From the NCBI GenBank assembly GCA_019358975.1, contig JAHHIL010000050.1, positions 1 to 43,825 on the forward strand: a stretch of DNA of 43,825 nt, written 5' to 3'. Below are positions 10,243 to 42,476 of the stretch, one piece after another (the first letter of the stretch is position 1; every line of letters begins with the position of its first letter). Made by a program: the position numbers and the translations under genes. This DNA comes from Trichocoleus desertorum ATA4-8-CV12. GTDB lineage: Bacteria; Cyanobacteriota; Cyanobacteriia; FACHB-46. The notes beneath the pieces were generated by a model, which was not told the origin of the DNA, ran no database searches, and was given only the letters and a program-made list of their open reading frames with translations.

Positions 10243-13200
10243 ATGTTTACTCTGGGTACAAAAGTTGCTTTCAAGGGCTCTGCTGCAAAAAGAAGCAATG
10301 TGAAGCCCCTTATAAGACAAGAACATAGTTCTCCGGTAGAGTTTGCTCAGCAAATTCAGCAAGAATTTGTAGAAGGTAGCGCGATCGCGCCCTGCCTGTA
10401 CCACGTTGCAACCCGATTGGTTGGCGATACTGAATCGCTCCCGGGTGGTGAGGTTACCTATCCCATCCACGAAGCGTTGAATTGGCATGTGACTCGCTTT
10501 GGGTATCAGGCCCGTACCAATTTGTATGCCGTGCTACTCATCAATGAAGATGGTTCCTGCTGGCAGGCAAAACTGAGTCATCCCCGGCACAATAGCAAAG
10601 GCAAAACTCAGAAATACGAAACTCCTGTCGGCAATGGTTCCCGTGCCTACCTGCCCCCGGTTCCTCCTGAAATTCGACAGTTAATCGGTCGGCGTTATGG
10701 CGTAGAAGTTCCTCTGTTTGGCTCCTTCTGGGATTGGGTTGAGGCACACCCTGAAATTCCCATGGTCCACACTGAAGGTGGTAAAAAGGCGCTCTCGCTA
10801 CTGAGTCAGGGTTTCGTGCCCTTGGCGTTCTACGGGGTCAACGGCGGTTATCAAAGGTTACTCGATGGCACTCGACGGTTGATTCCCGATGCTGCAAGAT
10901 TTGCTATCCCGGATCGCCGCTTCGTTTTGGCGTTTGACCAGGACGAAAAGGAAGCGACCCAACAACGAGTGTCCGTGGCCCTGTATCGCTTGGGAGGATT
11001 GCTAGGTCAAGCAGGCAACTTAGTCAGTGTCGCAACGTGGAAAGCGGCTCAAGGCAAAGGGGTCGATGATTTGATGGTGCGCTGTGGCGCTGCCGCTTGG
11101 CAGAGTGCTTACGACCAGGCACTGCCTTTGCAGCACTGGTTGATCTGGCAACGCTTAGAGCATCGGTTGACCTATCCCGCCGCAGTTAAAGTCACCACCG
11201 CTGACCTGTCCACTCTCGTCCTCAACCATCTTCCTGACAGCGGCATTGTGGCGATCGCGAGTGCCAAAGGCACTGGGAAAACCAAACAAATTCAGGCACT
11301 ACTCCAAGATTCTGAAAAAGCGATCGCGGGAGGGCACCGCATCGCACTGATGCGCAACCTGTCCGCTCGCTTGGGACTGGACTACAAAGGGGATCTCGAT
11401 AAGGTCAAGGGAGAGTTTATCAATGGAGCCGGTTACACCCTGCGAGTCGGACTGTGTGTGGACTCCTTACTCAGCATTGATCCCAACAAGTTCAGCGAAT
11501 GTGATCTCATCCTCGATGAAGTGGTGCAGGTCATCCGCCACCTGCTGACGAGTTCGACCTGTGCCAAGGATGGCAAACGTCCGGTGCTGCTATCCCGCCT
11601 GCGCGAACTGATTCGAGTGGCTCGTCGCGTCATTGTGGCTGACGCTGATCTCGACAACGCGACTCTGCATTACCTGAAAGAGTTGCGAGGGGATGACACC
11701 CCCATTTTCTTAATCCGCAACGCCTACCAGTCCGCAGGCTACCCCGTGCGCTTTATTCGCTCGCCCGATCGCAGCGCCATTACTGGAGAACTGCTGGCAG
11801 AGATGCAATCATTGGCACCCGGCAAAGTTCTCTTCATCGCCACTGATAGTAAGGGAACCAGTAAGGCGATCGCCCGCCTGATTGCCCAAGCGGCTCCCCA
11901 CCAGCGCGTGTTGCTCGTCAACTCCGAAACCAGCGGAGGGGATTGCGAACGCGAATTTATTCAAACTCCAGACGTGGTGCTGCAACGAGGTGAATATGAC
12001 CTGATTATTTGTTCTCCCTCAGTGGCCACGGGAGTCAGCATTGAAGCTCAAGGCATCATCTCCAAGGTTTACGGCATTTTTACCGGAACCTCCAGCACCG
12101 ATGCGGATATGGCCCAGGCCCTGGGGCGAGTTCGAGAACCCGTTGAGCGTGTGGTTTGGTGTGCCCAGCGAGGTAGTAACTTCTCGAAGGTGAGTCGTTC
12201 CCCCAATATCCTGGAGCTCAAAGACCATCTCCAGCAACGCACTACGGCCACCATTCAACTGATTCGCTCCAGCTTGAAAGAAGATGTCACCGGGGAAGTC
12301 ACTCACTACGACTGGCAGAGTGATCCGCATCTCAACCTGTTTTGCCGGATTGCTGCTGAACAGAACTTCGCCATGTATCACTTGAGGGATGCCCTGCTAG
12401 TGCGACTGCGATTTGAAGGTAATCAAGTGAGCATCGAAGATCGGGAAAACAACTCAGCGATGAAAGCGCTGCTGGCGATCGCTCGCCAAGAACAGCAAGA
12501 GGTGGATGCACGAGCCCTGTTGAATGCAGCGGATTTAACCTTTAGCGAAATCTTCAAGCTCGAACAAAAGGAAGGACTGGGGCGAGAAGAATCGTTAGCA
12601 GTCGCTAAGTTCTACTTCCAAGAGTTCTACTGCCTCGATTGCCTGCACCTGGAGGATGTGTTGTGGGACAAAGAAGGCAGACGGCGGGGAGAGCTCCTGA
12701 ACCTGGAGATGCAACTGTTTCCAGGCGTGGCGAGCGATCGCAGTGCGAAAGCATTGGAGAAGCAGGCGACCTGGAACCAGGGGTATTGCCCTTGGGACAT
12801 TTCCGGCTCCGAACTGCGACGTTGGCTGCGCTCAAACATTGGCATGGATGAATTGATCGCCAAGCTTCGTTCTGGTTGGCAGTGGTGCAAGTACGACTTG
12901 AAACCCTACGCTGATCGCGCCCGAGCCCTGACAGCACCAATCAAAGTCGCACTCCACTACACCATTACCAGCGCGATGAGTGACACTCAGATCATTCACC
13001 AGCTCCTCTCCCAAATGGGTATTAAGTTAACCATGCACTGGTCTCGCTCCCATCCCGGCTACGAGGGGGAGAAACTCAGGGTGTACAGTCTGGATCTGGC
13101 TCATTGGCAGCAGGTGTGGGGGATTCTGCAACGGCGACAGGAGAAACGGCAGCAACTTCAGCAGCGTTTAGAGATAGAGCCAGAGGTTGGATCACCTGCC

Positions 13201-13350
13201 CGGTTTAAGATTGAATCTCCTGCGGGTGATCCAGGCGGAGAGCCTACAACTGAGTCAGATTCCTGGCTCAATGAAGCGGTCTCAAGTGATATGAGGGAGA
13301 GCTTAGAAGCCTATGGGACTGACTCTAGAGGATCGGAAGTTAAAGACTGA
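10243..13350 (+). CDS. CyRepA1-family plasmid replication protein (DUF3854 plus SF-type helicase)
   Basis: 1035 residues. The N-terminal region (about 40-300) matches the DUF3854/Toprim-like part of this family, with VHTEGGKKALSLLSQG near 174-189 and RFVLAFDQDEKEAT near 225-238. A helicase core follows: Walker A ASAKGTGKTKQ (about 339-349), the Walker B/DE box DLILDEVVQ (about 422-430), the motif IICSPSVATGVSI near 590-602 and motif VI MAQALGRVREP near 622-632. The C-terminus is charged. CyRepA1 proteins are replication proteins of small cyanobacterial plasmids, uniting primase-like and helicase functions. The ATG follows AGGGAGATCAATA. It is independent of the iteron Rep and transcribed in the opposite direction. 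It appears intact. Confidence 0.85.
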   Translation: MFTLGTKVAFKGSAAKRSNVKPLIRQEHSSPVEFAQQIQQEFVEGSAIAPCLYHVATRLVGDTESLPGGEVTYPIHEALNWHVTRFGYQARTNLYAVLLINEDGSCWQAKLSHPRHNSKGKTQKYETPVGNGSRAYLPPVPPEIRQLIGRRYGVEVPLFGSFWDWVEAHPEIPMVHTEGGKKALSLLSQGFVPLAFYGVNGGYQRLLDGTRRLIPDAARFAIPDRRFVLAFDQDEKEATQQRVSVALYRLGGLLGQAGNLVSVATWKAAQGKGVDDLMVRCGAAAWQSAYDQALPLQHWLIWQRLEHRLTYPAAVKVTTADLSTLVLNHLPDSGIVAIASAKGTGKTKQIQALLQDSEKAIAGGHRIALMRNLSARLGLDYKGDLDKVKGEFINGAGYTLRVGLCVDSLLSIDPNKFSECDLILDEVVQVIRHLLTSSTCAKDGKRPVLLSRLRELIRVARRVIVADADLDNATLHYLKELRGDDTPIFLIRNAYQSAGYPVRFIRSPDRSAITGELLAEMQSLAPGKVLFIATDSKGTSKAIARLIAQAAPHQRVLLVNSETSGGDCEREFIQTPDVVLQRGEYDLIICSPSVATGVSIEAQGIISKVYGIFTGTSSTDADMAQALGRVREPVERVVWCAQRGSNFSKVSRSPNILELKDHLQQRTTATIQLIRSSLKEDVTGEVTHYDWQSDPHLNLFCRIAAEQNFAMYHLRDALLVRLRFEGNQVSIEDRENNSAMKALLAIARQEQQEVDARALLNAADLTFSEIFKLEQKEGLGREESLAVAKFYFQEFYCLDCLHLEDVLWDKEGRRRGELLNLEMQLFPGVASDRSAKALEKQATWNQGYCPWDISGSELRRWLRSNIGMDELIAKLRSGWQWCKYDLKPYADRARALTAPIKVALHYTITSAMSDTQIIHQLLSQMGIKLTMHWSRSHPGYEGEKLRVYSLDLAHWQQVWGILQRRQEKRQQLQQRLEIEPEVGSPARFKIESPAGDPGGEPTTESDSWLNEAVSSDMRESLEAYGTDSRGSEVKD

Positions 13351-13724
13351 CCCTCCCGCGAAGTGGACATTACTCATTAGCTCTCTCCTTTGGTAATGCT
13401 GGCACTACAATCAATTTCCCCGTTGCCAAAATAGGCGAACCAGCGTGCGTCCCAAGCTTCCCCATCCATACAGTCGTACTGCTTAGCGAGTACGTTCTCA
13501 TCCCTCCTGGACTGGCAGTTGAGCAATTGGAGCTCATGGGTGATTGGCGATCAAAGCAATCTCGCCTCCGACTGATTGGAGCTGAGCTATCCGGTAACAG
13601 AAGGCAAGTGCGCGGCATCACGCGACAAGGGTGTGGCAAGAAGGCGTTAGGTATGGCGCAAAATCAAGTTGTTGCGGTCGTGTCTTGGGGTAGCGATCCC
13701 AACCAAGGTGGGACATCAGCTTGA
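13344..13724 (+). pseudogene. Coding-like open frame without a good start, behind CyRepA1
   Basis: A plus-strand frame is open from just after TAA (13341-13343) to a TGA at 13722-13724. It reads with natural protein composition (for example SFGNAGTTINFPVAKIGEPA and YVLIPPGLAVEQLELMGDW). No ATG lies before 13527; only CTG at 13347 or a late ATG is available, and it overlaps the end of the CyRepA1 gene. It looks like a fragment fused behind CyRepA1 by rearrangement. The family is unknown. If the ATG at 13527 is used, the product is 65 residues. Confidence 0.3.
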
Positions 13725-13835
13725 CTAAATGAAGACGGGTGGAAGGCGATCGCTCTGCGGATAAAACTGGAAATTGTGTTTGCCAATGGAGGAGTGTTTG
13801 TAGACCTCTATAACCTCAGTTTTAGGATTCAAGCG
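13725..13835 (+). pseudogene. Copy 1 of a diverged, codon-conserved 37-residue segment
   Basis: Translated, it reads about WKAIALRIKLEIVFANGGVF then VDLYNLSFRIQA. It matches copy 2 (14491-14604) with mostly synonymous third-position changes and one in-frame three-base gap, which shows past selection on a protein. No complete gene surrounds it. Downstream to about 14040 only decayed frames are seen. Confidence 0.4.
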
Positions 13836-14102
13836 GTCAACACTCAACAGGGAGACGGGTCAGCAGGCAGCAGTCATGGGGTGCTCTTGCAGGGGGAAAA
13901 GATGTTAATGGAGCGAGCGTTCACGAATTCTGGTCGCTTGTGGGTCAGCGGCAAGCACCCCAGAGGCGGCGAGTGGATTGGGACCCCAAAGATTTGATTG
14001 ATGTAGAAGAGGCGCGATCGCGACAGGGCTGAACTAAGCTGCCAGTAGTCCTAGAATAAACTTGTGAAGGATGCCATTTGTACTTTTGTACTACCCATAA
14101 CA

Positions 14103-14140: not shown

Positions 14141-14174
14141 AACTGCGTCAAGAGTGCGTCAGAAGTGCGTCAAA
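14141..14174. repeat. 11-bp tandem repeats (GTGCGTCA), set 1
   Basis: Three head-to-tail units of about AGTGCGTCA(A/G)A, one per helical turn, directly after the terminator. A second set lies 82 bp downstream. Between the sets is unstructured sequence with no gene. Confidence 0.65.
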
Positions 14175-14223
14175 AATCAATCGTAGAAGTCGATGAAGCC
14201 GAATTAATGGCTCCTAAGGACTA

Positions 14224-14258
14224 GAAGTGCGTCAAGAGTGCGTCAGAAGTGCGTCAAA
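14224..14258. repeat. 11-bp tandem repeats (GTGCGTCA), set 2
   Basis: Three units identical to set 1, in the same order (CAAG, CAGA, CAAA endings). The helical phasing suggests either a cooperative protein-binding site or simple slippage. No protein partner is apparent nearby. Confidence 0.65.
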
Positions 14259-14490
14259 GTTGAGCTGCGACGAAAATTGCTGCAATGGATATGGGGTAGA
14301 TCGACTCAGTGTCGCGCTTACGCGACAGGGATGCCGCAGTCACGCGACCGTCACGCGACGAGAGGCGTTAGGTATGGCACAAGACTAAACCGCCGTCGGG
14401 CTTATGGGGAAGCGATCACCCTAAGGTGAGGCAACGACAATCTTGCGCCTACAGACTGAGTTATGGACTTTGGGAAATCCAGACCATTGG

Positions 14491-14604
14491 CTAAGTAAAG
14501 ACGGTTGGGAGGCGATCGGCATGCGGATAAAACTGAAGGAAATTGCGTTTGCTAATGGGGCATTGTTCGCAGACCTCTATAACCTCAGTTTCAAGGTTCA
14601 AGCG
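14491..14604 (+). pseudogene. Copy 2 of the diverged 37-residue segment
   Basis: Translated, it reads about GWEAIGMRIKLKEIAFANGA then LFADLYNLSFKVQA, in frame with an upstream WTLGNPDHWLSKD. It corresponds to copy 1 at 13725-13835. Further upstream, GAGGCGTTAGGTATGGC (about 14361) also matches the sequence before copy 1 (about 13641), so the duplicated unit was larger. It runs into the end of the crtI-like remnant on the other strand. Confidence 0.4.
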
Positions 14605-14623
14605 CTCGTCAGTTGGGTCATCA

Positions 14624-15030
14624 GGGGAACCCTTTCTCAAACACTTGTTCCGAGGCTTAGTAGAAGCGCCGATAGCCTGCGACATCAGCAGGGTTGAACT
14701 GGCGAATTTGCTCCACTAAGTAATCGCGATCGCCGTTGTACTGGAAGACAGAGCCATCTTCAAAGCGGACATTGTAGAAGGGGTCAAGCGGCACCAAGGT
14801 GACATAGTCCTCGATGGAGCGATCGCTCAACTGAAACAATTCCTGAATCAAGTAAGGAGCTGTGATGATGGTGGAACCCGCTCAAAGGTGAATCCCTCCT
14901 GCTTAAACACAGAGGCCCGTCCTCCGGGTTGATCCCGCTTTTCCACAATCGTCACCTGGTGTCCCTGCGCCTGGAGTCGGATGGCTGCCGACAACCCACC
15001 AAACCCGCTGCCAATCACCACAATCTTCAT
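14624..15030 (-). pseudogene. Broken crtI-like carotenoid desaturase gene (5' part only)
   Basis: ATG at 15028-15030 begins MKIVVIGSGFGGLSAAIRLQ, the dinucleotide-binding motif of CrtI-type FAD desaturases, followed by VEKRDQPGGRASV. The frame is lost near 14877-14886 by what looks like a one-base deletion (family sequence expects FD-A-G; here FERV). It resumes in the next frame as YLIQELFQLSDRSIEDYVTL and LDPFYNVRFEDGS up to GYRRFY. There TAA (14657-14659) replaces an expected Gln codon, and ASEQVFEKGFP still follows before homology ends near 14624. Only about 130 of some 500 residues remain. Intact enzymes desaturate phytoene or related carotenes. This copy cannot be functional. Confidence 0.8.
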
Positions 15031-15348
15031 GCCACTTGTCCCAAGCCCGCCAAACTCATTAGACCAGAAGGAGCTTGAGGTCACGCCTGAGGCAGCACCG
15101 AATTTGAGCGAAACTGTGAGTTCAGTTCCCGTTCTACACCCATCCTGAAGGCGATCGCCTCTCCATCAGTGTCGTCTCATCTAATACAGCCCTGCTGTTG
15201 AACTATTGCGGCAATGGCAAAGTTATTCCTTGGCGGGAATTGGGTACTTTGTTTCCTAAGGTGTTTTCCTCCCTTAGAAGTGAATTTCATCGTTTCCTCA
15301 CATTCGCAAAGTTTACGCCCCAGATAGTAGCCAAGTACCAAGGACAAA
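15031..15348. other. Spacer between crtI-like remnant and ethylene-forming-enzyme gene
   Basis: No gene is seen in these 318 bp. There is one HIP1 site near 15150 and an AAGGAC ribosome site just before the ATG at 15349. A promoter for the downstream gene should lie here, but no hexamer pair is convincing. Confidence 0.4.
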
Positions 15349-16368
15349 ATGACTGATTTACAGACATTCTCCCTGCCCGAATCTGTGACTGGGACACAAG
15401 CTGATATTGAGATTGCCCGCCAGATGATTCAGGTGTGGCAAAGCGATGGCATCTTTCAAATTGCTTTGAATCTAACTCAGGATCAAACTACTAAAAATGC
15501 CTTTGAGACCAGCCAGCGATTCTTTCGTTTGCCACTCAAAAGCAAATCCCAATGCATTAGCGACCTGAGTTATAGCGGCTATATCGCTGTCGGAGAAGAG
15601 GTGACGGCTGGCGAAGCTGACCACTCTGAGATCTTTACAATTTGCAAAGATATCCCGTTCCACGATGTCAGCGTCCAGACTCAATGGCCCTGTCATGGCC
15701 CCGTACCTTGGCCTGATCAGAACTATCAACAAGGCATGAAAACTTATATGGATGAGTTGGGGGCGATCGGTGAAAAAATGTTGAGATTGGTAGCTTTAGG
15801 TTTAGAACTCAATGACATCAATGCCCTCACCAACTTGACCAAAGATGGCTGGCATCACATGCGCGTTTTACGATTCCCTGCGTTATCTGAAAGTGCCACA
15901 AAAGGGATCGGAGCCCATACTGATTATGGCTTGTTAGTCATTGCCTCTCAAGACGATCGCGGTGGTCTTTATATCCGTCCCCCTGTGCCAGGAGAACAGC
16001 GTCAGCGAAATTGGTTATCTACTGAAAGCTCTGCGGGGATGTACGAAAACGATGACCCCTGGACATTTGTCAAACCTGTACCCAGCGTACTTACTGTCTT
16101 TCCAGGTGATATTTTGCAATTCATCACTAACGGCCATCTCCTCTCCACCCCTCACAAAGTCAAGCTGAACCCTAGGGAGCGATTTGCCCTAGCGTACTTC
16201 CATGAACCCAACTTTAATGCTGAAATCCGCCCCCTATTGGATGCTGATAGTGATGCCTCCATTCATTACGGCACCCACTTTACCAATATGTTCATGAGGT
16301 CCTATCCGGAGCGAATCACCACCCGCCGCATTGTTGATGAAGATCGACTCTCACGTTTAGCCCTCTAA
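15349..16368 (+). CDS. efe: 2-oxoglutarate/Fe(II) oxygenase, ethylene-forming enzyme homologue
   Basis: 339 residues that align almost end to end with my recollection of Pseudomonas syringae EFE (about 350 residues), including SDLSYSGYIAVGEEVTAG, WPCHGPVPWP, DGWHHMRVLRFP, GIGAHTDYGLLVIA and YFHEPNF. Iron ligands are His190, Asp192 and His269; Arg278 would bind 2-oxoglutarate. The L-arginine pocket residues Glu84, Thr86, Arg172, Tyr193 and Arg317 are kept (numbers +1 relative to EFE after a one-residue insertion near 155). Differences include Ser318 for Cys317 and Asp236 for Glu235, and the C-terminal tail is about 15 residues shorter. EFE converts 2-oxoglutarate to ethylene and CO2, and also hydroxylates arginine to guanidine and pyrroline carboxylate. 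It is monocistronic, with AAGGAC before the ATG. The alternative is a non-ethylene-forming arginine hydroxylase of the same clade. Confidence 0.88.
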   Translation: MTDLQTFSLPESVTGTQADIEIARQMIQVWQSDGIFQIALNLTQDQTTKNAFETSQRFFRLPLKSKSQCISDLSYSGYIAVGEEVTAGEADHSEIFTICKDIPFHDVSVQTQWPCHGPVPWPDQNYQQGMKTYMDELGAIGEKMLRLVALGLELNDINALTNLTKDGWHHMRVLRFPALSESATKGIGAHTDYGLLVIASQDDRGGLYIRPPVPGEQRQRNWLSTESSAGMYENDDPWTFVKPVPSVLTVFPGDILQFITNGHLLSTPHKVKLNPRERFALAYFHEPNFNAEIRPLLDADSDASIHYGTHFTNMFMRSYPERITTRRIVDEDRLSRLAL

Positions 16369-17436: not shown

Positions 17437-17838
17437 GTGAGTAGTTCGGATGTGGTCAGCAAACTAAAGGCAGCATGCAGTGGCTTGCAATTCATGAGTG
17501 AGTCTGATTACCCCTTTGAAGTGTTCATCTGGGAAGGAAAAGCTCAAGAGACCTGGACTCCAGAAAAGGTCGCTCAGCACACTGGGCATCCAGCAGATAC
17601 CTCAGTGAAGGTAGTGACTTTAGTTGACTTCTTTCGGCCTGCCACCGAAGAGCAGGACTGGTTCGGCCTGCAAGAGCAGGAGAGTGCTGCCAAGTTCAAA
17701 AACCTAGAGAGCGCGATCGCCAGCACGCTGCACAATGTCAAAGTGTATCGCGTTGGGCAAATCGAGATTGATGTTTATATTCTTGGCACTTGCGGCAATG
17801 ATTGCGTCGGCCTCTCCACCAAACTAGTCGAAACCTAG
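17437..17838 (+). CDS. nuiA: NuiA-like inhibitor of the NucA nuclease
   Basis: 133 residues, close to the 135 of Anabaena NuiA, whose sequence I recall as sharing FMSESEYPFEVFLWEG, the QQTGH segment, a VV-x-x-x-x-FF region and the ending STKVVET. Here the matches are FMSESDYPFEVFIWEG, AQHTGHPAD, VVTLVDFF, DWFGLQEQ and STKLVET. NuiA binds NucA tightly and blocks its active site through its C-terminal residues (ET), which are present. The start is GTG after a GGAGGTC ribosome site. The stop lies next to that of the convergent nucA gene. It lacks a signal peptide, so it acts in the cytoplasm as a safeguard before nuclease export. Confidence 0.92.
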   Translation: MSSSDVVSKLKAACSGLQFMSESDYPFEVFIWEGKAQETWTPEKVAQHTGHPADTSVKVVTLVDFFRPATEEQDWFGLQEQESAAKFKNLESAIASTLHNVKVYRVGQIEIDVYILGTCGNDCVGLSTKLVET

Positions 17839-18738
17839 CTATTGACTATCCACATTCGCTTCCATTACCGCTTGAACCGATCGCGGCACGCTGCTCAAGA
17901 AGTCATACTGAGTTTTTGCTTCAAGTTGGTCTACTGACGTTTTGAACGACTGCCAGCTATTCCTCTTAATGCCCTGTTGATTCGGCATGTCCACCGCAAT
18001 GACTCGTGTTTTGGTAGTAATGCCTTTCAGTCCAGCTCCTGGTTGATCAAGCACTACAATCACTTTCCAAGTGCTAGCTGGAATCACAACCTTGCCTGCT
18101 GCGAGCGTGGTCATTGGTCCTTGTTCACCCACCCCGCCTTGACCCCTGCCTCCTGCAATAATGTAAAGCTCTTTTCCTTGCCTGACTAAACCTCGGCAGT
18201 ATTCCTCCAACGCCACCCACGGCCCTCGATTGTTATCTGGTGCTTGGGGAATGATGTTGGTCATCAAGAAGGTGGCAGAGTTCGCCTCAACCGTTCCGCC
18301 TCGATCTTCAGAGGAGGTGAGATGGCCGCGATCGAAGCCACTGTTGGTGTAGTCTCTAGGACTCACTCGATACCAGCCAACAGGCAGCTGGGGGTCTGGA
18401 CGGAAGTTATTCTGCCGCTCCGTCTCTCCCAACCAGGTTGAATTCAGTTGCCAGCTCACCCAGTTTGGGGTGCCTTTACTGCGGTTGTAGGAGAGGGCGT
18501 ACTGCGGCTTCACCATCAAGTAGTTATCTGGCTTGGCTACATTGGCCACCGCATTACTAGGATTGCCCAACCGTAGGTGAACACTTCTAGAGGTTGGAGG
18601 GGGAGGGGAAGGACTAGGGGTTGGTGTAGGAACTGAGGGTGGACTCTCAATGGGAGGAGCGAGCACGCATCCGGACAAGATCAACAACAGCCCCATCAAG
18701 CACGCCAAAAAATTGATGCGCACGTTACGCCTCCACAA
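17839..18738 (-). CDS. nucA: NucA-type DNA/RNA non-specific endonuclease, lipoprotein
   Basis: 299 residues. A lipoprotein signal has its lipobox LSGC at 21-24, followed by a Pro/Ser-rich spacer (31-50). The nuclease domain follows: SPRDYTNSGFDRGHLTSSED with the DRGH motif at 136-139 and catalytic His139, then MTNIIPQAPDNNRGPW with metal-binding Asn (169/170) and a Glu in the next helix (ALEEY). It cleaves single- and double-stranded DNA and RNA with a Mg or Mn ion. It should sit on the outer face of a membrane, for nutrient scavenging or defence against incoming DNA. It is convergent with its inhibitor gene, with which it shares the end region. All key residues are present. Confidence 0.92.
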   Translation of the reverse strand: MWRRNVRINFLACLMGLLLILSGCVLAPPIESPPSVPTPTPSPSPPPPTSRSVHLRLGNPSNAVANVAKPDNYLMVKPQYALSYNRSKGTPNWVSWQLNSTWLGETERQNNFRPDPQLPVGWYRVSPRDYTNSGFDRGHLTSSEDRGGTVEANSATFLMTNIIPQAPDNNRGPWVALEEYCRGLVRQGKELYIIAGGRGQGGVGEQGPMTTLAAGKVVIPASTWKVIVVLDQPGAGLKGITTKTRVIAVDMPNQQGIKRNSWQSFKTSVDQLEAKTQYDFLSSVPRSVQAVMEANVDSQ

Positions 18739-23345: not shown

Positions 23346-26066
23346 ATGCCCAGTGTTCAAGAAACTGCCTATCCTCGTCAAAAGAGCCATCTCACCGTTA
23401 AGGAACTGACAACCATCTACACCCCAACCGTTGAGGAGTTAGCCTTTGCGAAAGGAGCCACGGCAAGCGGGAGTGGGACACGGCTGGGCTTGCTGATCTT
23501 GCTCAAAACATTTCAGCGACTGGGTTATGCGGTTTCTACCCAAGTCGTACCCAACAGCATTATTCGCCATATTGCGGCGGTTGCCCATCTCGATGTTTCC
23601 AGTCGGCAATTAGCAGACTATGATGCTTCGGTCACCCGACGGCGACACTTACAGATCGTTCGAGACTACTTGCAGTTGCATCCCTACAATCGGGCAGCAG
23701 CGGTCGTGATGGAGGAAGCCCTGCGTAAAGCCGCACTGACCAAACAGGATTTAGCAGATCTGATCAATGTTGCAATTGAAGAATTGGTGCGCCAACGGTT
23801 TGAACTACCGGCTTTTAGCACCCTCAAACGGGTTGCACAGCAAATCCGAGCGCAGGTGGCGACCGCCTTTTATCAACAGGTCAATGCTCATTTAACGGTT
23901 GCCAGTCGCCAACAAATTGATGCCCTGTTTGAAATCACCACCGATGCCACCAGCACTCCCTGGAATGAACTCAAACAGGATGCAGGCAACCTGACGCTCA
24001 CGCATCTGCGAAGCTGGATTGAGCGATTGCAGAAATTGCAGCAGTTGCAGTTTGGACAAGCTGCTTTAATCGGCATTCCAGAGGTCAAAGTCAAACACTT
24101 CGCCCAGGAAGCGATGACGCTGGATGCGGCTCGGATGAAGCAGATGGAGCCGTCTAAGCGATATACCCTGGCGGTTGCCCTGCTGAGCGTTCAGTCTGCT
24201 CGCACCCTGGATGATTTGGCAGAGATGTTTATCAAGCAGATGCAGCAAATGCATCACAAAGGCAGAACTGCGTTGGCAGAGTATCGAGTCGAAATGCAAC
24301 CCCGCACCGACGAATTGATTGCGACCCTGCGGGAAGTGGTGCTGGCATATCAGAAACCCGGCGAAATCCCAAATCGCTTTGCTGCCATTGAGTCCATCAT
24401 TGGGGATCAAGGCGATGCCTTGGTAGAACAGTGCGATGCTCATCTGAGCCATGTAGAAAACAACTACTTCTCGTTGATGCAGAACTTCTACAAAAACTAC
24501 CGAGCTACTTTATTTCGGCTCATCGAGGTGCTGCCCTTACGCTCCAGTACACAGGACACGACCCTAGAAGAAGTGATTGATTTTTTGCTGAAACATCGGC
24601 ATCATCGGCAAGCAGACTTGCCGGTCGTTCGAGTAGAAAACGCTGGCACTGAGGCAGAGCAAAGAGTCCAGCCCATTGACTTAAGTTGGATTTCCTCCAA
24701 ATGGTGGCAATTAGTTACGGGGCAACGTGCCCGCGCCCCAGTGCCTCAGAGCGTTCATCGTCGCCACTTTGAAGTTTGCGTTTTCTCACAGATCTTCCTG
24801 GAACTGAAGTCCGGCGACCTCTACGTTGAAGGAAGTTCTGACTACGGCGATTACTACAGCCAACTCATTTCGTGGGAGGAATATGAGGCTGCCCTGGCAG
24901 AGTATGGGCAGCAAGTGGAATTACCAACCGACCCTCAAGCCTTTGTCGTTCATGTGCAACGGTGGCTGATAGATTGCGCGACCACGTTTGATGATGCCTT
25001 TCCCGCCAACGCGGAGGTCGATTATCAACAAGACCGCCTGGTGATTCGCAAAGCGAAAGCAAAGACGGTGCCTGGAGCAGCTCAACTAAAAGCTCGTATC
25101 GCTGAACGCATTCGCCCCGTGAATTTGCTCGATACCTTGATTGACACAGAACTGTGGCTTAACTGGACACGCTTCTTCAAACCTAAATCAGGACACGATA
25201 GCAAACTAGATCGTCCGGTCGCTCGGTATTTAGCAACCACCTTTTGCTATGGCTGCAACTTGGGTCCTTCCCAAGCCGCGCGGTCGCTCAAAGGATTTGA
25301 CCGACGGCAGGTGTCCCATGTGCATCAACGGCATATTGATTTAGATAAGCTGCAAGCAGCCATTACTGCCATCATTGATGCGTATAACCGTTTCAACTTG
25401 CCAAAGTATTGGGGAACTGGGAACCAAGCCTCAGTCGATGGCACCAAGTGGGATATCTACGAAAACAATTTACTGGCGGAGTACCACATTCGTTACGGCG
25501 GCTATGGCGGCATTGGCGACTATCATGTCTCAGACACTTACATTGCACTGTTCAGTCACTTTATTCCTTGTGGAGTTTGGGAAGCGGTCTACATTCTCGA
25601 TGGCTTGCTGAACAATCAATCTGAGATCCAGCCGGACACCATTCATGGCGACACCCAGGCTCAAAGTGCAACCGTCTTTGCCCTGGCATATCTGCTGGGC
25701 ATTACTTTGATGCCTCGCATCCGCAACTGGAAATCCTTGACGTTTTACCGCCCAATGCGATCTGTGCGCTATCAGCACGTTGATTCGCTGTTTACCGATA
25801 CCGTCAACTGGAATCAGATTGAGACCTATCTGCCAGATATGCTGCGGGTTGCATTGTCCGTTAAGGCAGGCAAGATCAATGCTTCAACCGGGTTGCGGAA
25901 ACTCAGCACCAACAGTACCAAAAACAAGCTCTACCAAGCATTTCACGTCTTAGGCTGTGCAGTCAGAACGGGTTTCTTGTTGCAATATCTCAATGATGCA
26001 CAACTGCGAGCGACCATCCATGCGGCGACCAACAAGAGTGAGGCTTTTAACCACTTCGTACAATAA
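23346..26066 (+). pseudogene. tnpA: Tn3-family transposase TnpA, 5' part (split by IS)
   Basis: 905 codons of an original roughly 1005. The N-terminal DUF4158-type DNA-binding region has EELAFAKGATASGSGTRLGL. The RNase-H-like core has Asp near 698 in SVDGTKWD, Asp near 769 in IHGDTQAQ and Glu near 899 in ATNKSEAFNHF; all three catalytic residues lie before the break. The frame stops because an IS element enters at 26065 and supplies TAA. Codons resume at 27122 in the same frame. ATG start after AGGAGGGTGTC, a strong ribosome site. A truncated product lacking the last 100 residues is unlikely to be active, since that part is conserved in the family. Confidence 0.9.
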
Positions 26067-27119
26067 ACCTTATTGGAAATAGAGAGGGACAGTGATCAAG
26101 TCACTCCTTGCCCTCTGGATCTGCAACTAAACCGCTTGGGGCGTCTGCTTCGCTTTTTGAGAACGGTGGGTGAGTCGAAAGTTATGCAAGCCGCAAGCCG
26201 TTTCTAGGACATCATCAAGATAGTAGTCAACCCAATTGCGGAACTTGTGCAACAGAATTTGACAGCGCTTGATCCCTCCAATCTGGTGCTCGATCTCGAC
26301 TCGAGTCCTCGATATCTGACGGTTGTGAGCTTTCTCCTCTAGCGTGAGTGACCCATTTCGGGGTTTCTTCTGCGGTTGTCGAATCGTCAGACCTTCGGGA
26401 GCGAAGCCCTGAAACCCACTATCCTGCCAGAGGGTGCTGCCTGGGGGAAAGCTCAAGCCTTCCTCATCCGCAATTTTCTTGTCGTGTTTTTTGCCTTCGT
26501 AGGTGTCACTCAGGAACATAACCTTGCCTCCGCGTTCGCTGATCACCAGGTTGTTGACGGTATGAGTTCTCTTCTTGCCGCTGTAATAGGTTTTGCGATC
26601 GTCTTGATCTTGGGGTCGATTAATCGGTCGCTCGGTCCCGTCAATCATGAATTCTAGGCTTGGACAAGCCCGCAGCACTGTCTCTAGCTTGGCTGGGTCT
26701 CGCTCGGGCAACTGCTGTTCATACCCCAAGGCGCGATTAAGGATGGCGCTCAATCGATGAATCCATTCATTCGCTTGGGCTTGGCTCATCCCAAAGAGAA
26801 ATCCCTGCACCATCTGTGTGGGGTAGAGTCGGAAGTAGACCAGGATGAACAGCAGTTTATCCTCGAGCTGTTTGAGGTGAGCTTTTCGACCTGCCCCGAA
26901 GGCTCGTTGGCGCGCTTGATGCTGGAAGGTCTCTTTGACAAACGCCTCCCAAGCAGCCTGAAAGCTCTCTAACAAAGCCTCAAACTCTTTGGGGGTGAGC
27001 CCTGTTAAACTACACAAGACCTGCGGTTTGGTTCGTAGTTCCGCATACGTCATTTTCATCTACCGACCTCATCCCAGGTGCACCGTATTAATTCTAAAGT
27101 CTAATTTCCGATAAGGTTT
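26065..27119 (-). mobile_element. IS5-like insertion sequence, 1055 bp
   Basis: The ends are AAACCTTATTGGAAATAGA on the left and, reversed, AAACCTTATCGGAAATTAGA on the right, an imperfect terminal repeat of about 18 bp. AAT is duplicated at 26062-26064 and 27120-27122. Removing the element and one AAT restores the tnpA frame exactly (CAA TGG). It carries one transposase gene on the minus strand. The length and single gene suit the IS5 family. Confidence 0.9.
26127..27059 (-). CDS. IS5-family-like DDE transposase
   Basis: 310 residues. The N-terminal helix-turn-helix Tnp4-type domain (about 15-130) has LTGLTPKEFEALLESFQAAW and LFGMSQAQANEWIHRL. The DDE_Tnp_4 core has Asp in FMIDGTERPI followed by RPQDQDDRKTYYSGKKRTHT, a second Asp in LWQDSGFQGF, and Glu in RTRVEIEHQIGGIK. 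The residues look intact and the frame is unbroken, so the element may still be active. It occupies nearly the whole IS. ATG start. Confidence 0.88.
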   Translation of the reverse strand: MKMTYAELRTKPQVLCSLTGLTPKEFEALLESFQAAWEAFVKETFQHQARQRAFGAGRKAHLKQLEDKLLFILVYFRLYPTQMVQGFLFGMSQAQANEWIHRLSAILNRALGYEQQLPERDPAKLETVLRACPSLEFMIDGTERPINRPQDQDDRKTYYSGKKRTHTVNNLVISERGGKVMFLSDTYEGKKHDKKIADEEGLSFPPGSTLWQDSGFQGFAPEGLTIRQPQKKPRNGSLTLEEKAHNRQISRTRVEIEHQIGGIKRCQILLHKFRNWVDYYLDDVLETACGLHNFRLTHRSQKAKQTPQAV

Positions 27120-27121
27120 AA

Positions 27122-27421
27122 TGGTTGTCGTTTGGGGGAGAAGGTGTCATTTCCTCGAACAACCGAGAAGAACAGCGAAAGATGATTCGCTATAACCACC
27201 TGGTGGCAAATTGCCTGATCTTCTACAACGTTTTTGAGATCAGTCGAATTCTCCATGAATTGCGGCAAAAAGGCTATCCCTTAGAACCAGAGGTCGTTGC
27301 TGCCCTTAGTCCCTACTGGACGCAGCATGTGAATCGCTTTGGACGGTACGATCTCAACCTTAATCGTTGCCCACCTCCCATTGATTATGACCTTCCGGTA
27401 GTACAAACGATTGATCCTTGA
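27122..27421 (+). pseudogene. tnpA: Tn3-family transposase TnpA, 3' part (split by IS)
   Basis: Continues the tnpA frame after the IS: WLSFGGEGVISSNNREEQRK, then YNHLVANCLIFYNVFEISRI, the conserved C-terminal helix bundle of Tn3 transposases, and a normal ending at 27421. There are no further frameshifts, so the IS insertion is the only lesion. Confidence 0.9.
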
Positions 27422-32397: not shown

Positions 32398-32701
32398 GTT
32401 AGCTTTCTAGCGATCGCTTTAGTGGGGGGCGACTGCCGGAGCGCTGAGCTACTGTATTGGCCTAGTTGCAAAGTAGAAAGGAAAAACCTTAGGTGTTAGT
32501 GAGCATCTGTGAATAAATGGGCCATTGGAAAAAGTGAATTATTCCTTTAAGGAACTTGGAACACGCCTAACCAATGTTACGCGGCCAAAACTGCTCCATG
32601 CTAAACCTTATTTAATTTGACTTGGCTGTATCAAATCACACATCGCACTGATTATAAGTGCCAAAGTGTTCGATGGTAAGCATCTATCTCGGACACCCGT
32701 A

Positions 32702-34258
32702 ATGACTAAGACCTTCGATTTTCGTTCAGTTGCAGTACTAAAATATATTGCCTTAGCTACCGTTGGCATCTTTAGTAGTGTGGGGTTAGTTCTAGCACTA
32801 TCAATTCCTTCACTAGCCACGACTACAAGCGATTTAGATGGCGACGGCAAATCAGATGTCTTGTGGCGTCATGCCGTAAGCGGTTCTGTGGGTGCTTGGC
32901 TGATGAACGGCCTTAGCCGCAGAGAGGCACGTGAAATTGCTGTTGAGCAGGATCAGAACTGGAAAGTTGTTGGGGTTGGTGACTTAGATGGTGACGGCAA
33001 ATCAGATGTTCTATGGCGTCATGCTGTAAGCGGTTCTGTTGATGGTTGGTTGATGAATGGTTTCAGTCGCAAAGCCGCAGGTACAATTCTTGTTGAGCAG
33101 GACCAGAACTGGAAAGTTGTTGGGGTTGGTGACTTAGATGGTGACGGCAAATCAGATGTTCTATGGCGTCATGCCGTAAGCGGTTCTGTGGGTGCTTGGC
33201 TAATGAACGGCCTCAGTCGCAGAGAGGCGCGTGAAATTGCTGTTGAGCAGGATCAGAACTGGAAAGTTGTTGGGGTTGGTGACTTAGATGGTGACGGCAA
33301 ATCAGATGTTCTATGGCGTCATGCTGTAAGTGGTTCTGTTGACGGTTGGTTGATGAATGGTTTCAGCCGCAAGAGCGCAGGTACGATTCTTGTTGAGCCA
33401 GACCAGAACTGGAAAGTTGTTGGGGTTGGTGACTTAGATGGTGACGGCAAATCAGATGTTCTATGGCGTCATGCTGTAAGTGGTTCTGTGGGTGCCTGGC
33501 TAATGAACGGCCTCAGTCGCAGAGAGGCACGTGAAATTGCTGTTGAGCAGGATCAGAACTGGAAAGTTGTTGGGGTTGGTGACTTAGATGGTGACGGCAA
33601 ATCAGATGTTCTATGGCGTCATGCTGTAAGTGGTTCTGTTGACGGTTGGTTGATGAATGGTTTCAGCCGCAAGAGCGCAGGTACGATTCTTGTTGAGCCA
33701 GACCAGAACTGGAAGGTCTTACCCTCGCGCAGCGATACTGGACAGATTGGTCTTCCTTTCGCAAACAACCAAACTTGGTATGTTTGTCAAGGTTATCAAG
33801 GATACATATCACATCAAAGCACGTTTGGATTAGACCTTTCAGTAGCTCAAGATTTCGGAACGAACTCTTGTTATGCTGCGGATGGAAATGTTAACAAGTC
33901 TGCTGGTCAACCGATTTTAGCACCTGCTGCTGGCACAATTTCTTACATCAATTCAGATTTAGTATGCTTGCAAATTGGTCCAGATCGGAGTCTTTTAATT
34001 GGTCATATGGATCGTCGTGTTGCTAACGGAGCTGTAGTAACTCAAAATAGCTTGTTAGGAACTGTATCTCAGGCAGCAGATGCAAATGGAGGGTTTGCTC
34101 ATATTCACGTTGAAGCTCGTAAACATCCCACTTGTGCTATAAGTACTTCGGTTCCATTTACCTCTGCTAATGGGTTCCAGTTTGATGGAGTTGAAAATTT
34201 GCCAGATCTTACAGAGCGCAATGACTACTTTAAGAAGTCATTAACGAAACCTTACTAA
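32702..34258 (+). CDS. Exported repeat protein with M23-like C-terminal domain
   Basis: 518 residues from ATG at 32702; a GTG 36 bp earlier is possible but would lengthen the signal peptide unusually. Signal: YIALATVGIFSSVGLVLAL with cleavage near SLAT. Six 50-residue repeats follow (about 44-343), each starting DLDGDGKSDVLWRHAVSGSV; D-x-D-G-D-G-x-x-D is a calcium-binding loop as in FG-GAP/VCBS propeller repeats. The repeats alternate between two types. The last 170 residues resemble LytM/M23 peptidases: STFGLDLSV, APAAGTISYI, LLIGHMDRRV, then HIHVEA with the H-x-H pair. One zinc ligand position (H-x-x-x-D) is atypical, so activity is uncertain. It is likely an extracellular cell-wall or adhesion protein. 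Confidence 0.8.
   Translation: MTKTFDFRSVAVLKYIALATVGIFSSVGLVLALSIPSLATTTSDLDGDGKSDVLWRHAVSGSVGAWLMNGLSRREAREIAVEQDQNWKVVGVGDLDGDGKSDVLWRHAVSGSVDGWLMNGFSRKAAGTILVEQDQNWKVVGVGDLDGDGKSDVLWRHAVSGSVGAWLMNGLSRREAREIAVEQDQNWKVVGVGDLDGDGKSDVLWRHAVSGSVDGWLMNGFSRKSAGTILVEPDQNWKVVGVGDLDGDGKSDVLWRHAVSGSVGAWLMNGLSRREAREIAVEQDQNWKVVGVGDLDGDGKSDVLWRHAVSGSVDGWLMNGFSRKSAGTILVEPDQNWKVLPSRSDTGQIGLPFANNQTWYVCQGYQGYISHQSTFGLDLSVAQDFGTNSCYAADGNVNKSAGQPILAPAAGTISYINSDLVCLQIGPDRSLLIGHMDRRVANGAVVTQNSLLGTVSQAADANGGFAHIHVEARKHPTCAISTSVPFTSANGFQFDGVENLPDLTERNDYFKKSLTKPY
32831..33730 (+). repeat. Six 150-bp tandem repeats, alternating A/B types
   Basis: Units start at 32831, 32981, 33131, 33281, 33431 and 33581. Odd units encode GAWLMNGLSRREAREIAVEQ; even units encode DGWLMNGFSRKAAGTILVEQ or a close variant. 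Units of the same type are nearly identical in DNA, so a 300-bp double unit was amplified recently, giving three copies. Confidence 0.95.
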
Positions 34259-40595: not shown

Positions 40596-42476
40596 ATGGC
40601 AACCTTAATCCCGTCCCTCAATAGCTGCCTACCTCGCATGACCAATGGCGAGAAGCGACTGGCTGAGAGACTGGAGCGGAAACTGGAGGAAGACTACATA
40701 CTCTGGTACGACGTGGCAGTAGGCACAAAGCAACTGCACCCAGACTTTATCGTTCTGCATCCTGGCCGAGGGTTGTTCATTTTAGAGGTTAAGGACTGGA
40801 AGCTAGAGAATATTCAACGGATCACTCAGGCCACGGTTGAGCTACTCACCCCGAACGGCATCAAAGAGGTCAAGAACCCCCTAGCCCAGGCGAGAAATTA
40901 TGCCTTAGCTGTGAATGAGACCCTAGAGCGCGATCGCCTCCTAGTGCAGACAGAAGGACGCTATCAAGGCAAGTTGGTGCTGCCTTATGGCTATGGTGTT
41001 GTCTTCACCGAGATTACCCGCAAAGCTTTTGAACAAACTGATTTAGGCGAAGTCTTCGATTCGAATCTAGTCATTTGCAAAGACGAAATGACGGAAAAGG
41101 TTGATCCAGAGGAATTCCAGAAACGGTTTTGGGACTTATCTCCCTATCAATTTGGCAAAGCACTCACCTCGGAGCAAATCGATCGAGTGCGCTGGCACCT
41201 TTTCCCTGACCTACGAATTTCAGCCAAGCAATTGTCACTCTTTGGTAAGGATGTTGTAGAGGCAGAGGTAGAGCCACAGCAACAGGAACTGATCCCAGAT
41301 CTAATCAGAATTATGGATTTGCAGCAGGAGCAGCTTGCCCGCAGTCTAGGAGAAGGGCACCGAGTCATTCACGGTGTTGCTGGTTCTGGGAAAACTTTAA
41401 TTTTGGCTTACCGTTGCCAGCACTTAGCTCAGCAAACAACCAAACCCATCCTTGTGCTCTGCTTCAATGTCTCATTGGCTGCTCGGCTACGGCAAATGAT
41501 GGAGGAGAAAGGACTGAGCGATCGCGTTAGAGTGCGTCACTTTCACGGTTGGTGCGTCGATCAGCTCAAGCAATATGGGCTAATTCTCCCCAACAAACAG
41601 CGATATCAAGGAGACGACTATGTTGAGCAGCTCGTGCAGCGAGTTATTCAAGGTGTAGATCAAAACCGCATCCCAGCGGGGCACTATGGTGCTGTCATGA
41701 TTGATGAAGGGCACGACTTTCAGTCTGAGTGGCTCAAGTTAGTTGTGCAAATGGTTGATCCAGAAACCAATTCACTATTGGTGCTCTACGATGATGCTCA
41801 AAACCTCTACGGTGAGGACAAAAAACAGAAGTTTAGCTTTAAGAGTATTGGCATCCAAGCTCAGGGGCGGACTACTATCCTCAAGCTCAACTATCGCAAT
41901 ACGGCAGAAGTACTGACTCTAGCTTACGAGTTCGCTAAAGAAGTTATGGCTCCCACGGATGACCAAGAAGATGGGCCAGTTCTAGTTTCTCCTCAAAGCG
42001 TTGGTCGCCACGGCCCTACTCCGGAACTGATTCGATTACCTAGCTTTAAGCACGAAGCTGACTACTTAGTGGAGCGAGTGCAACAATTTAATGAGCGTGG
42101 CACTGCTTGGAATGAAATGGCGATTGTTTACCGCTCTAAGTTTATGGGCGATCGCATCCATCAACAGCTGCAACAGGCTCAAGTTCCAGTTGAGTGGGTT
42201 AACGCAACGACTCAAAGTAGAAATTTCCACCCGGATGAGCAGAGCATCAAACTCATGACCATGCACTCAAGTAAAGGTCTGGAGTTTCCGGTGGTTTTCA
42301 TCCCTGGCGTAGGTTATCTACCAAATCAGTACGGTACAGTGCAGGAGGAAACTCGGCTGTTCTATGTTGCGATGACTCGTGCCGTCGATCAATTAGTACT
42401 AACGTGCGATCGAGATTCAGAGTTTGTAGACAGAATCCAGATAGCATTGAGCAGAACATCTCGCTTGGCTTTATGA
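40596..42476 (+). CDS. NERD nuclease-UvrD/SF1 helicase fusion
   Basis: 626 residues. The NERD domain (about 15-130) has the PD-(D/E)XK residues Asp50 in HPDFIVLHPGRG and Glu64-x-Lys66 in LFILEVKDW. The SF1 helicase has Walker A GVAGSGKTLILAY (about 259-271), motif II IDEGHDFQSEW (about 369-379), motif IV/V regions LKLNYRNTAEVL and MTMHSSKGLEFPVVF, and motif VI RLFYVAMTRA (about 590-599). Such fusions unwind and probably cleave DNA and occur in plasmids and defence islands. The stop overlaps the start of the thermonuclease gene (ATGA), so the two are coupled. All helicase motifs seem intact. The target is unknown. Confidence 0.88.
   Translation: MATLIPSLNSCLPRMTNGEKRLAERLERKLEEDYILWYDVAVGTKQLHPDFIVLHPGRGLFILEVKDWKLENIQRITQATVELLTPNGIKEVKNPLAQARNYALAVNETLERDRLLVQTEGRYQGKLVLPYGYGVVFTEITRKAFEQTDLGEVFDSNLVICKDEMTEKVDPEEFQKRFWDLSPYQFGKALTSEQIDRVRWHLFPDLRISAKQLSLFGKDVVEAEVEPQQQELIPDLIRIMDLQQEQLARSLGEGHRVIHGVAGSGKTLILAYRCQHLAQQTTKPILVLCFNVSLAARLRQMMEEKGLSDRVRVRHFHGWCVDQLKQYGLILPNKQRYQGDDYVEQLVQRVIQGVDQNRIPAGHYGAVMIDEGHDFQSEWLKLVVQMVDPETNSLLVLYDDAQNLYGEDKKQKFSFKSIGIQAQGRTTILKLNYRNTAEVLTLAYEFAKEVMAPTDDQEDGPVLVSPQSVGRHGPTPELIRLPSFKHEADYLVERVQQFNERGTAWNEMAIVYRSKFMGDRIHQQLQQAQVPVEWVNATTQSRNFHPDEQSIKLMTMHSSKGLEFPVVFIPGVGYLPNQYGTVQEETRLFYVAMTRAVDQLVLTCDRDSEFVDRIQIALSRTSRLAL

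Follow-up and report, generated by a model that had tools for sequence, protein, structure and literature searches.

The cyanobacterium Trichocoleus desertorum ATA4-8-CV12 appears to carry a functional ethylene-forming enzyme (EFE) on an accessory replicon, a reading based on comparison with characterised relatives and to which we assign a probability of roughly 0.87. The gene (here efe) lies on a contig of 43,825 bases that was analysed whole (the window) and that belongs to a 6.06-Mb draft assembly in 90 contigs:

15349..16368, + strand: efe, ethylene-forming enzyme, 339 aa, intact, ATG to TAA

Identification of the efe product

Among solved structures searched with phmmer, the efe product is most similar to Pseudomonas PK2 EFE (residues 1-337, 508 bits, E-value: ~1e-151), a similarity that chance could not account for. 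Outside the natural EFEs, scores drop to ~105 bits or less, as for the reconstructed ancestor Anc357 (9ovh, 105 bits) and 6jyv (81 bits). In a MAFFT alignment the protein is 64.9% identical to PK2 EFE across 336 columns, that is, about 65% over the whole length, which bears out the full-length EFE homology proposed in a preliminary description of this DNA. It is 76% identical to the homologues of Scytonema NIES-4073 and Nostoc ATCC 43529. Nonsynonymous differences in efe are 0.14-0.17 per site and synonymous differences are 0.72-0.92 and saturated; because the former are low relative to the latter, the protein has evidently been maintained by purifying selection.

The conserved domains of the protein are PF03171 and PF14226, both generic to the isopenicillin-synthase-like superfamily, and no EFE model fires in an NCBIfam search. 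These results would suit some other isopenicillin-synthase-like oxygenase that is not an EFE, but this assignment is extremely improbable given the 65-76% identity to active EFEs or to homologues in the same strains, the complete L-arginine pocket described below and a phylogenetic tree that refutes it at the level of homology. In this tree, the efe product is placed inside the EFE group and apart from cyanobacterial IPNS-like oxygenases (branch support 100/99). The shortest paths from it lead to Nostoc, Scytonema, Westiellopsis and Fischerella. Branching order among phyla within the EFE tree is poorly settled, and the AU test (p 0.48) neither favours nor rejects one cyanobacterial clade.

Active site and predicted fold

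Residues of the efe product are given in window numbering, with PK2 EFE numbering in square brackets. The iron ligands H190, D192 and H269 [189, 191, 268] are conserved, as are R278 [277] and R172 [171] of the 2-oxoglutarate site together with PK2 positions F283 and A281. The L-arginine pocket is complete (E84, T86, D91, Y193 [192] and R317 [316]). Every residue that had been named for the iron triad, the 2-oxoglutarate arginine and the L-arginine pocket is thus present in the alignment.

The best AlphaFold model of the protein has a pLDDT of 85; the remaining four of the five models (pLDDT ≤63.5) are not confident. The best model matches EFE crystal structures with and without L-arginine, among them 5lun and 6vp4 (the latter a complex with Fe, 2-oxoglutarate and L-arginine), with Z ~47 and 1.6 Å over 338 residues, compared with Z 30 for 6jyv, a non-EFE IPNS-like protein of P. 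aeruginosa. The efe product is therefore predicted to take the EFE fold.

Substitutions near the pocket and the C-terminal tail

Two changes near the pocket had been put forward as tuning the balance between ethylene formation and arginine hydroxylation: Cys317 of PK2 is replaced by Ser (S318 in window numbering) and Glu235 by Asp (D236). Both changes are real, but a tuning role is disfavoured because Ser317 occurs naturally in the active EFE of Myxococcus stipitatus (PMC9101411), a swap of residue 317 in a fungal EFE left the partition ratio as before (PMC12060275) and E235D in Pseudomonas EFE had no significant effect on the amount of ethylene formed (PMC4202696). In the alignment, Ser317 is also found in both Frankia homologues and in the Oculatella homologue. 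On this published evidence, C317S and E235D are probably neutral.

Two further changes, A199S and E213P (PK2 numbering), were overlooked in the preliminary description. Positions A199, V212/E213 and I304 are correlated with ethylene output (Johansson 2014), and in Pseudomonas EFE both A199G and V212Y/E213S clearly cut ethylene (PMC4202696). The efe product keeps V212 and I304, and its changes at 199 and 213 are not exactly those of the published mutants. In the set of 38 compared sequences no other has Ser199, while Pro213 is frequent in the Streptomyces homologues. The tail is indeed shorter than that of PK2 EFE, as had been remarked (339 residues versus ~350, a difference of ~11), but this is not unusual, one Frankia and one Nonomuraea homologue each ending at 340.

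Comparison with known EFEs and distribution

The efe product resembles the EFE of Pseudomonas savastanoi/syringae PK2 (P32021; 5v2y, 6vp4) in full-length sequence (65% identity), in all Fe, 2-oxoglutarate and L-arginine ligands and in fold. It differs from it by C317S, E235D, A199S and E213P, by one residue inserted near 155 and by its cyanobacterial host. The Pseudomonas gene was originally isolated from an indigenous plasmid (PMC3946592).

The EFEs of Scytonema NIES-4073 and Nostoc ATCC 43529 come from the same phylum and, as given above, the homologues in these strains are 76% identical to the efe product. Unlike it, the Scytonema, Nostoc and Microcoleus asticus EFEs keep Cys317 (PMC9101411), and A199 and E213 are unchanged in the homologues from Scytonema and Nostoc. 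In Scytonema the gene is part of a 9.4-Mb record, interpreted as the chromosome, whereas efe lies on a putative plasmid. Identity of the efe product with the M. asticus EFE, judged by the description of the latter, was considered and rejected: the SQ and NALT motifs are common, but Cys317 and a 10-residue offset differ (PMC9101411). The Penicillium digitatum EFE (9eir, 9eis) is of the same family (Z 39-40 with the AlphaFold model), but has an N-terminal extension and Asn in place of Cys317 (PMC12060275). A Streptomyces clavuligerus homologue, WP_003958676.1, is likewise plasmid-borne and shows 45% identity. It is probably not an EFE, because the alignment shows Fe-ligand and L-arginine positions replaced (Pro at Fe ligand 189; Ala, Gly and His at L-arginine positions 86, 91 and 192).

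A search of public genomes found 37 close loci, which belong to cyanobacteria, to actinobacteria and myxobacteria, and to Hahella. Six named cyanobacteria are represented (Scytonema, Nostoc, Oculatella, Fischerella, Westiellopsis and a Pleurocapsa bin), and the other hosts include Frankia, Pyxidicoccus, Streptomyces, Lentzea, Kibdelosporangium and Hahella. EFE is rare and patchy in cyanobacteria, since it is absent from 388 of 390 sampled cyanobacterial genomes and from both sibling species of the host genus (two of its three species). A natural cyanobacterial EFE had been expected to be notable in itself. This does not hold, because such enzymes are already known: Cui et al. 2022 (PMC9101411) obtained ethylene, both from the purified proteins and in E. 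coli cells, with the EFEs of M. asticus, Scytonema sp. NIES-4073 and Nostoc sp. ATCC 43529, and close loci occur in several phyla. These three had the lowest in-cell activity among the six EFEs tested (PMC9101411). What is new here is a further, very probably plasmid-borne EFE with A199S and E213P, in a host that also has ethylene-receptor-domain and guanidinase genes. No report of EFE-derived ethylene from a wild cyanobacterium was found among the open-access papers searched.

The efe replicon and gene neighbourhood

The features of the window that bear on its replication and on the surroundings of efe are as follows:

10243..13350, + strand: CyRepA1-family plasmid replication protein, 1035 aa (NCBIfam NF042913, 366 bits, cut-off 200; Pfam DUF3854)
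14141..14258, no strand: iteron-like 11-base direct repeats GTGCGTCARRA, in two clusters between rep and efe
14663..15031, - strand: frameshifted remnant of the N-terminus of a CrtI-type phytoene desaturase, upstream of efe (from translation; first 50 aa compared with 4dgk)
17437-17838, + strand: NuiA-type nuclease inhibitor
17839-18738, - strand: NucA-type non-specific endonuclease
23346..26066, + strand: Tn3-family transposase (NF033527, 583 bits, profile positions 4-873 of 954)
26061..27123, - strand: IS element with 20-base terminal inverted repeats and a DDE transposase (26127-27059)

The contig is read as a plasmid because it has a CyRepA1 gene scoring well above the model cut-off, iteron-like repeats and a length of only 43,825 bases. 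The plasmid location that had been claimed for efe is accordingly well supported by the gene content. The repeat clusters at 14141-14258 are a possible plasmid origin. No terminal overlap of the contig was found, and a search of PLSDB for related plasmids gave no near match beyond a 106-base piece. A second CyRepA1 gene, 97% identical, is located on another contig of the assembly (C28, 16836-19847), which may be a sister plasmid, or else the replicon may have been duplicated. Between rep and efe there is also a pair of direct repeats (13721-13838 and 14487-14607; 84% identity, 766-769 bases apart) resembling a duplicated, degenerate short gene.

The efe gene stands alone, followed on its 3' side by a small uncharacterised gene and then by the nuclease/inhibitor pair. 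The NuiA-type inhibitor and NucA-type endonuclease genes are arranged tail to tail, as a toxin/antidote-like pair on the plasmid. None of the window genes beside efe recurs beside EFE in other loci. The position next to transposons that had been suggested is a loose description: transposase genes are first met at 23346, ~7 kb downstream, and do not flank efe. The 3' end of the Tn3 transposase gene is probably cut by the adjoining IS element. Carriage of efe as transposon cargo was considered and rejected, as the flanking inverted repeats are only short and imperfect, several of them being built on the common GCGATCGC word. Elsewhere in the window, a NERD-UvrD helicase fusion (40596-42476) is a full-length match to PADLOC model C3a187 (814 bits) and is a possible defence gene, and the region 32666-34258 encodes a protein in which an M23 peptidase-like domain is joined to near-identical FG-GAP repeats.

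The possibility that efe is a silent or decaying plasmid passenger, with no expression under normal conditions, must be weighed at this point. In a scan limited to sigma-70 consensus sites, no sigma-70-like promoter was found directly upstream of efe, a degenerate crtI remnant adjoins the gene (its first 50 aa match phytoene dehydrogenase 4dgk at 1e-13) and, as noted above, efe is missing from two of the three species in the genus. The scan has little power, however, because it covered this one consensus and returned fewer sites than in shuffles, and efe has an unbroken reading frame under strong constraint. Silence of the gene is thus considered unlikely. No Rfam RNA, riboswitches included, reaches the gathering score in the 43,825-base window.

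Proposed reactions and host guanidine and ethylene-sensing genes

The proposed reactions of the efe product, drawn from characterised relatives, are as follows. With Fe(II), O2 and L-arginine as a bound effector, the enzyme would convert 2-oxoglutarate to ethylene and CO2 (PMC12060275). In a minority of turnovers, it would instead hydroxylate L-arginine at C5. The hydroxylated L-arginine would fall apart to guanidine and pyrroline-5-carboxylate (P5C), and the co-substrate would be converted to succinate (PMC12060275).

The host genome contains a guanidine-I riboswitch ~0.1-0.4 kb ahead of a guanidinase gene. The encoded guanidinase scores 763 bits against 7esr, which we take to be the Synechocystis Sll1077 guanidinase, and the genes that follow are read from their sequences as hypA and hypB. 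Sll1077 shields EFE-expressing cyanobacteria from guanidine (PMC8390497). A second guanidine-I riboswitch is found on contig C80, with same-strand genes that are judged from sequence to be ABC transporter, SsuA-like, creatininase-like and glutamine-synthetase-like. Three genes of the host genome encode the ETR1_N ethylene-binding domain, in which the YYSIP and ACGTTH motifs are kept. Ethylene concentrations in the nanolitre per litre range are enough to elicit a response in cyanobacteria (PMC6682694).

These traits are not specific evidence for EFE, because the EFE-less sibling species and roughly half of the class likewise have the riboswitch/guanidinase trait and the ethylene-receptor domains, and four of six EFE carriers lack the riboswitch. 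A link between EFE and guanidine sensing was rejected on these grounds, as the riboswitch does not track EFE (two of the six carriers tested versus 63 of 116 sampled cyanobacteria). The ethylene-receptor domain is found in all six EFE carriers, compared with 59 of 116 genomes in the class; this association is suggestive at most, because EFE carriers have large genomes.

The same genes bear on whether the efe product might be an EFE-family arginine C5-hydroxylase, yielding mainly guanidine, P5C and succinate with little ethylene and serving nitrogen or arginine metabolism. Such a role would be in keeping with A199S and E213P, which lie at positions affecting ethylene output (PMC4202696), and with the riboswitch and Sll1077-like guanidinase; guanidine nitrogen could be recovered, because the host has a riboswitch-preceded guanidinase with hypA and hypB. 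Nevertheless, the partition ratio is near uniform in reconstructed EFE ancestors (PMC12329707), P213 recurs in Streptomyces homologues and the guanidine riboswitch, present in so few of the carriers, does not follow EFE. A predominantly arginine-hydroxylating enzyme is therefore very unlikely, and an ethylene-forming enzyme is the preferred reading of the efe product.

Significance

Photosynthetic ethylene production is modelled in cyanobacteria engineered to express a foreign EFE, and guanidine is toxic to these strains. A natural host that has its own EFE, alongside ethylene-receptor domain genes and a guanidinase under riboswitch control, would offer a test of ethylene making and sensing in the wild. 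The efe product also adds to the family an EFE with two natural substitutions (A199S and E213P) at positions linked to ethylene output. A broader and quite doubtful proposal is that the plasmid makes its host a natural ethylene emitter, the mobile gene supplying an ethylene signal for the host itself or its neighbours and the host being pre-adapted to the toxic by-product. If this is true, the emitter would itself carry ethylene-receptor domain proteins, encoded by three ETR1_N genes, as well as a guanidinase that responds to guanidine.
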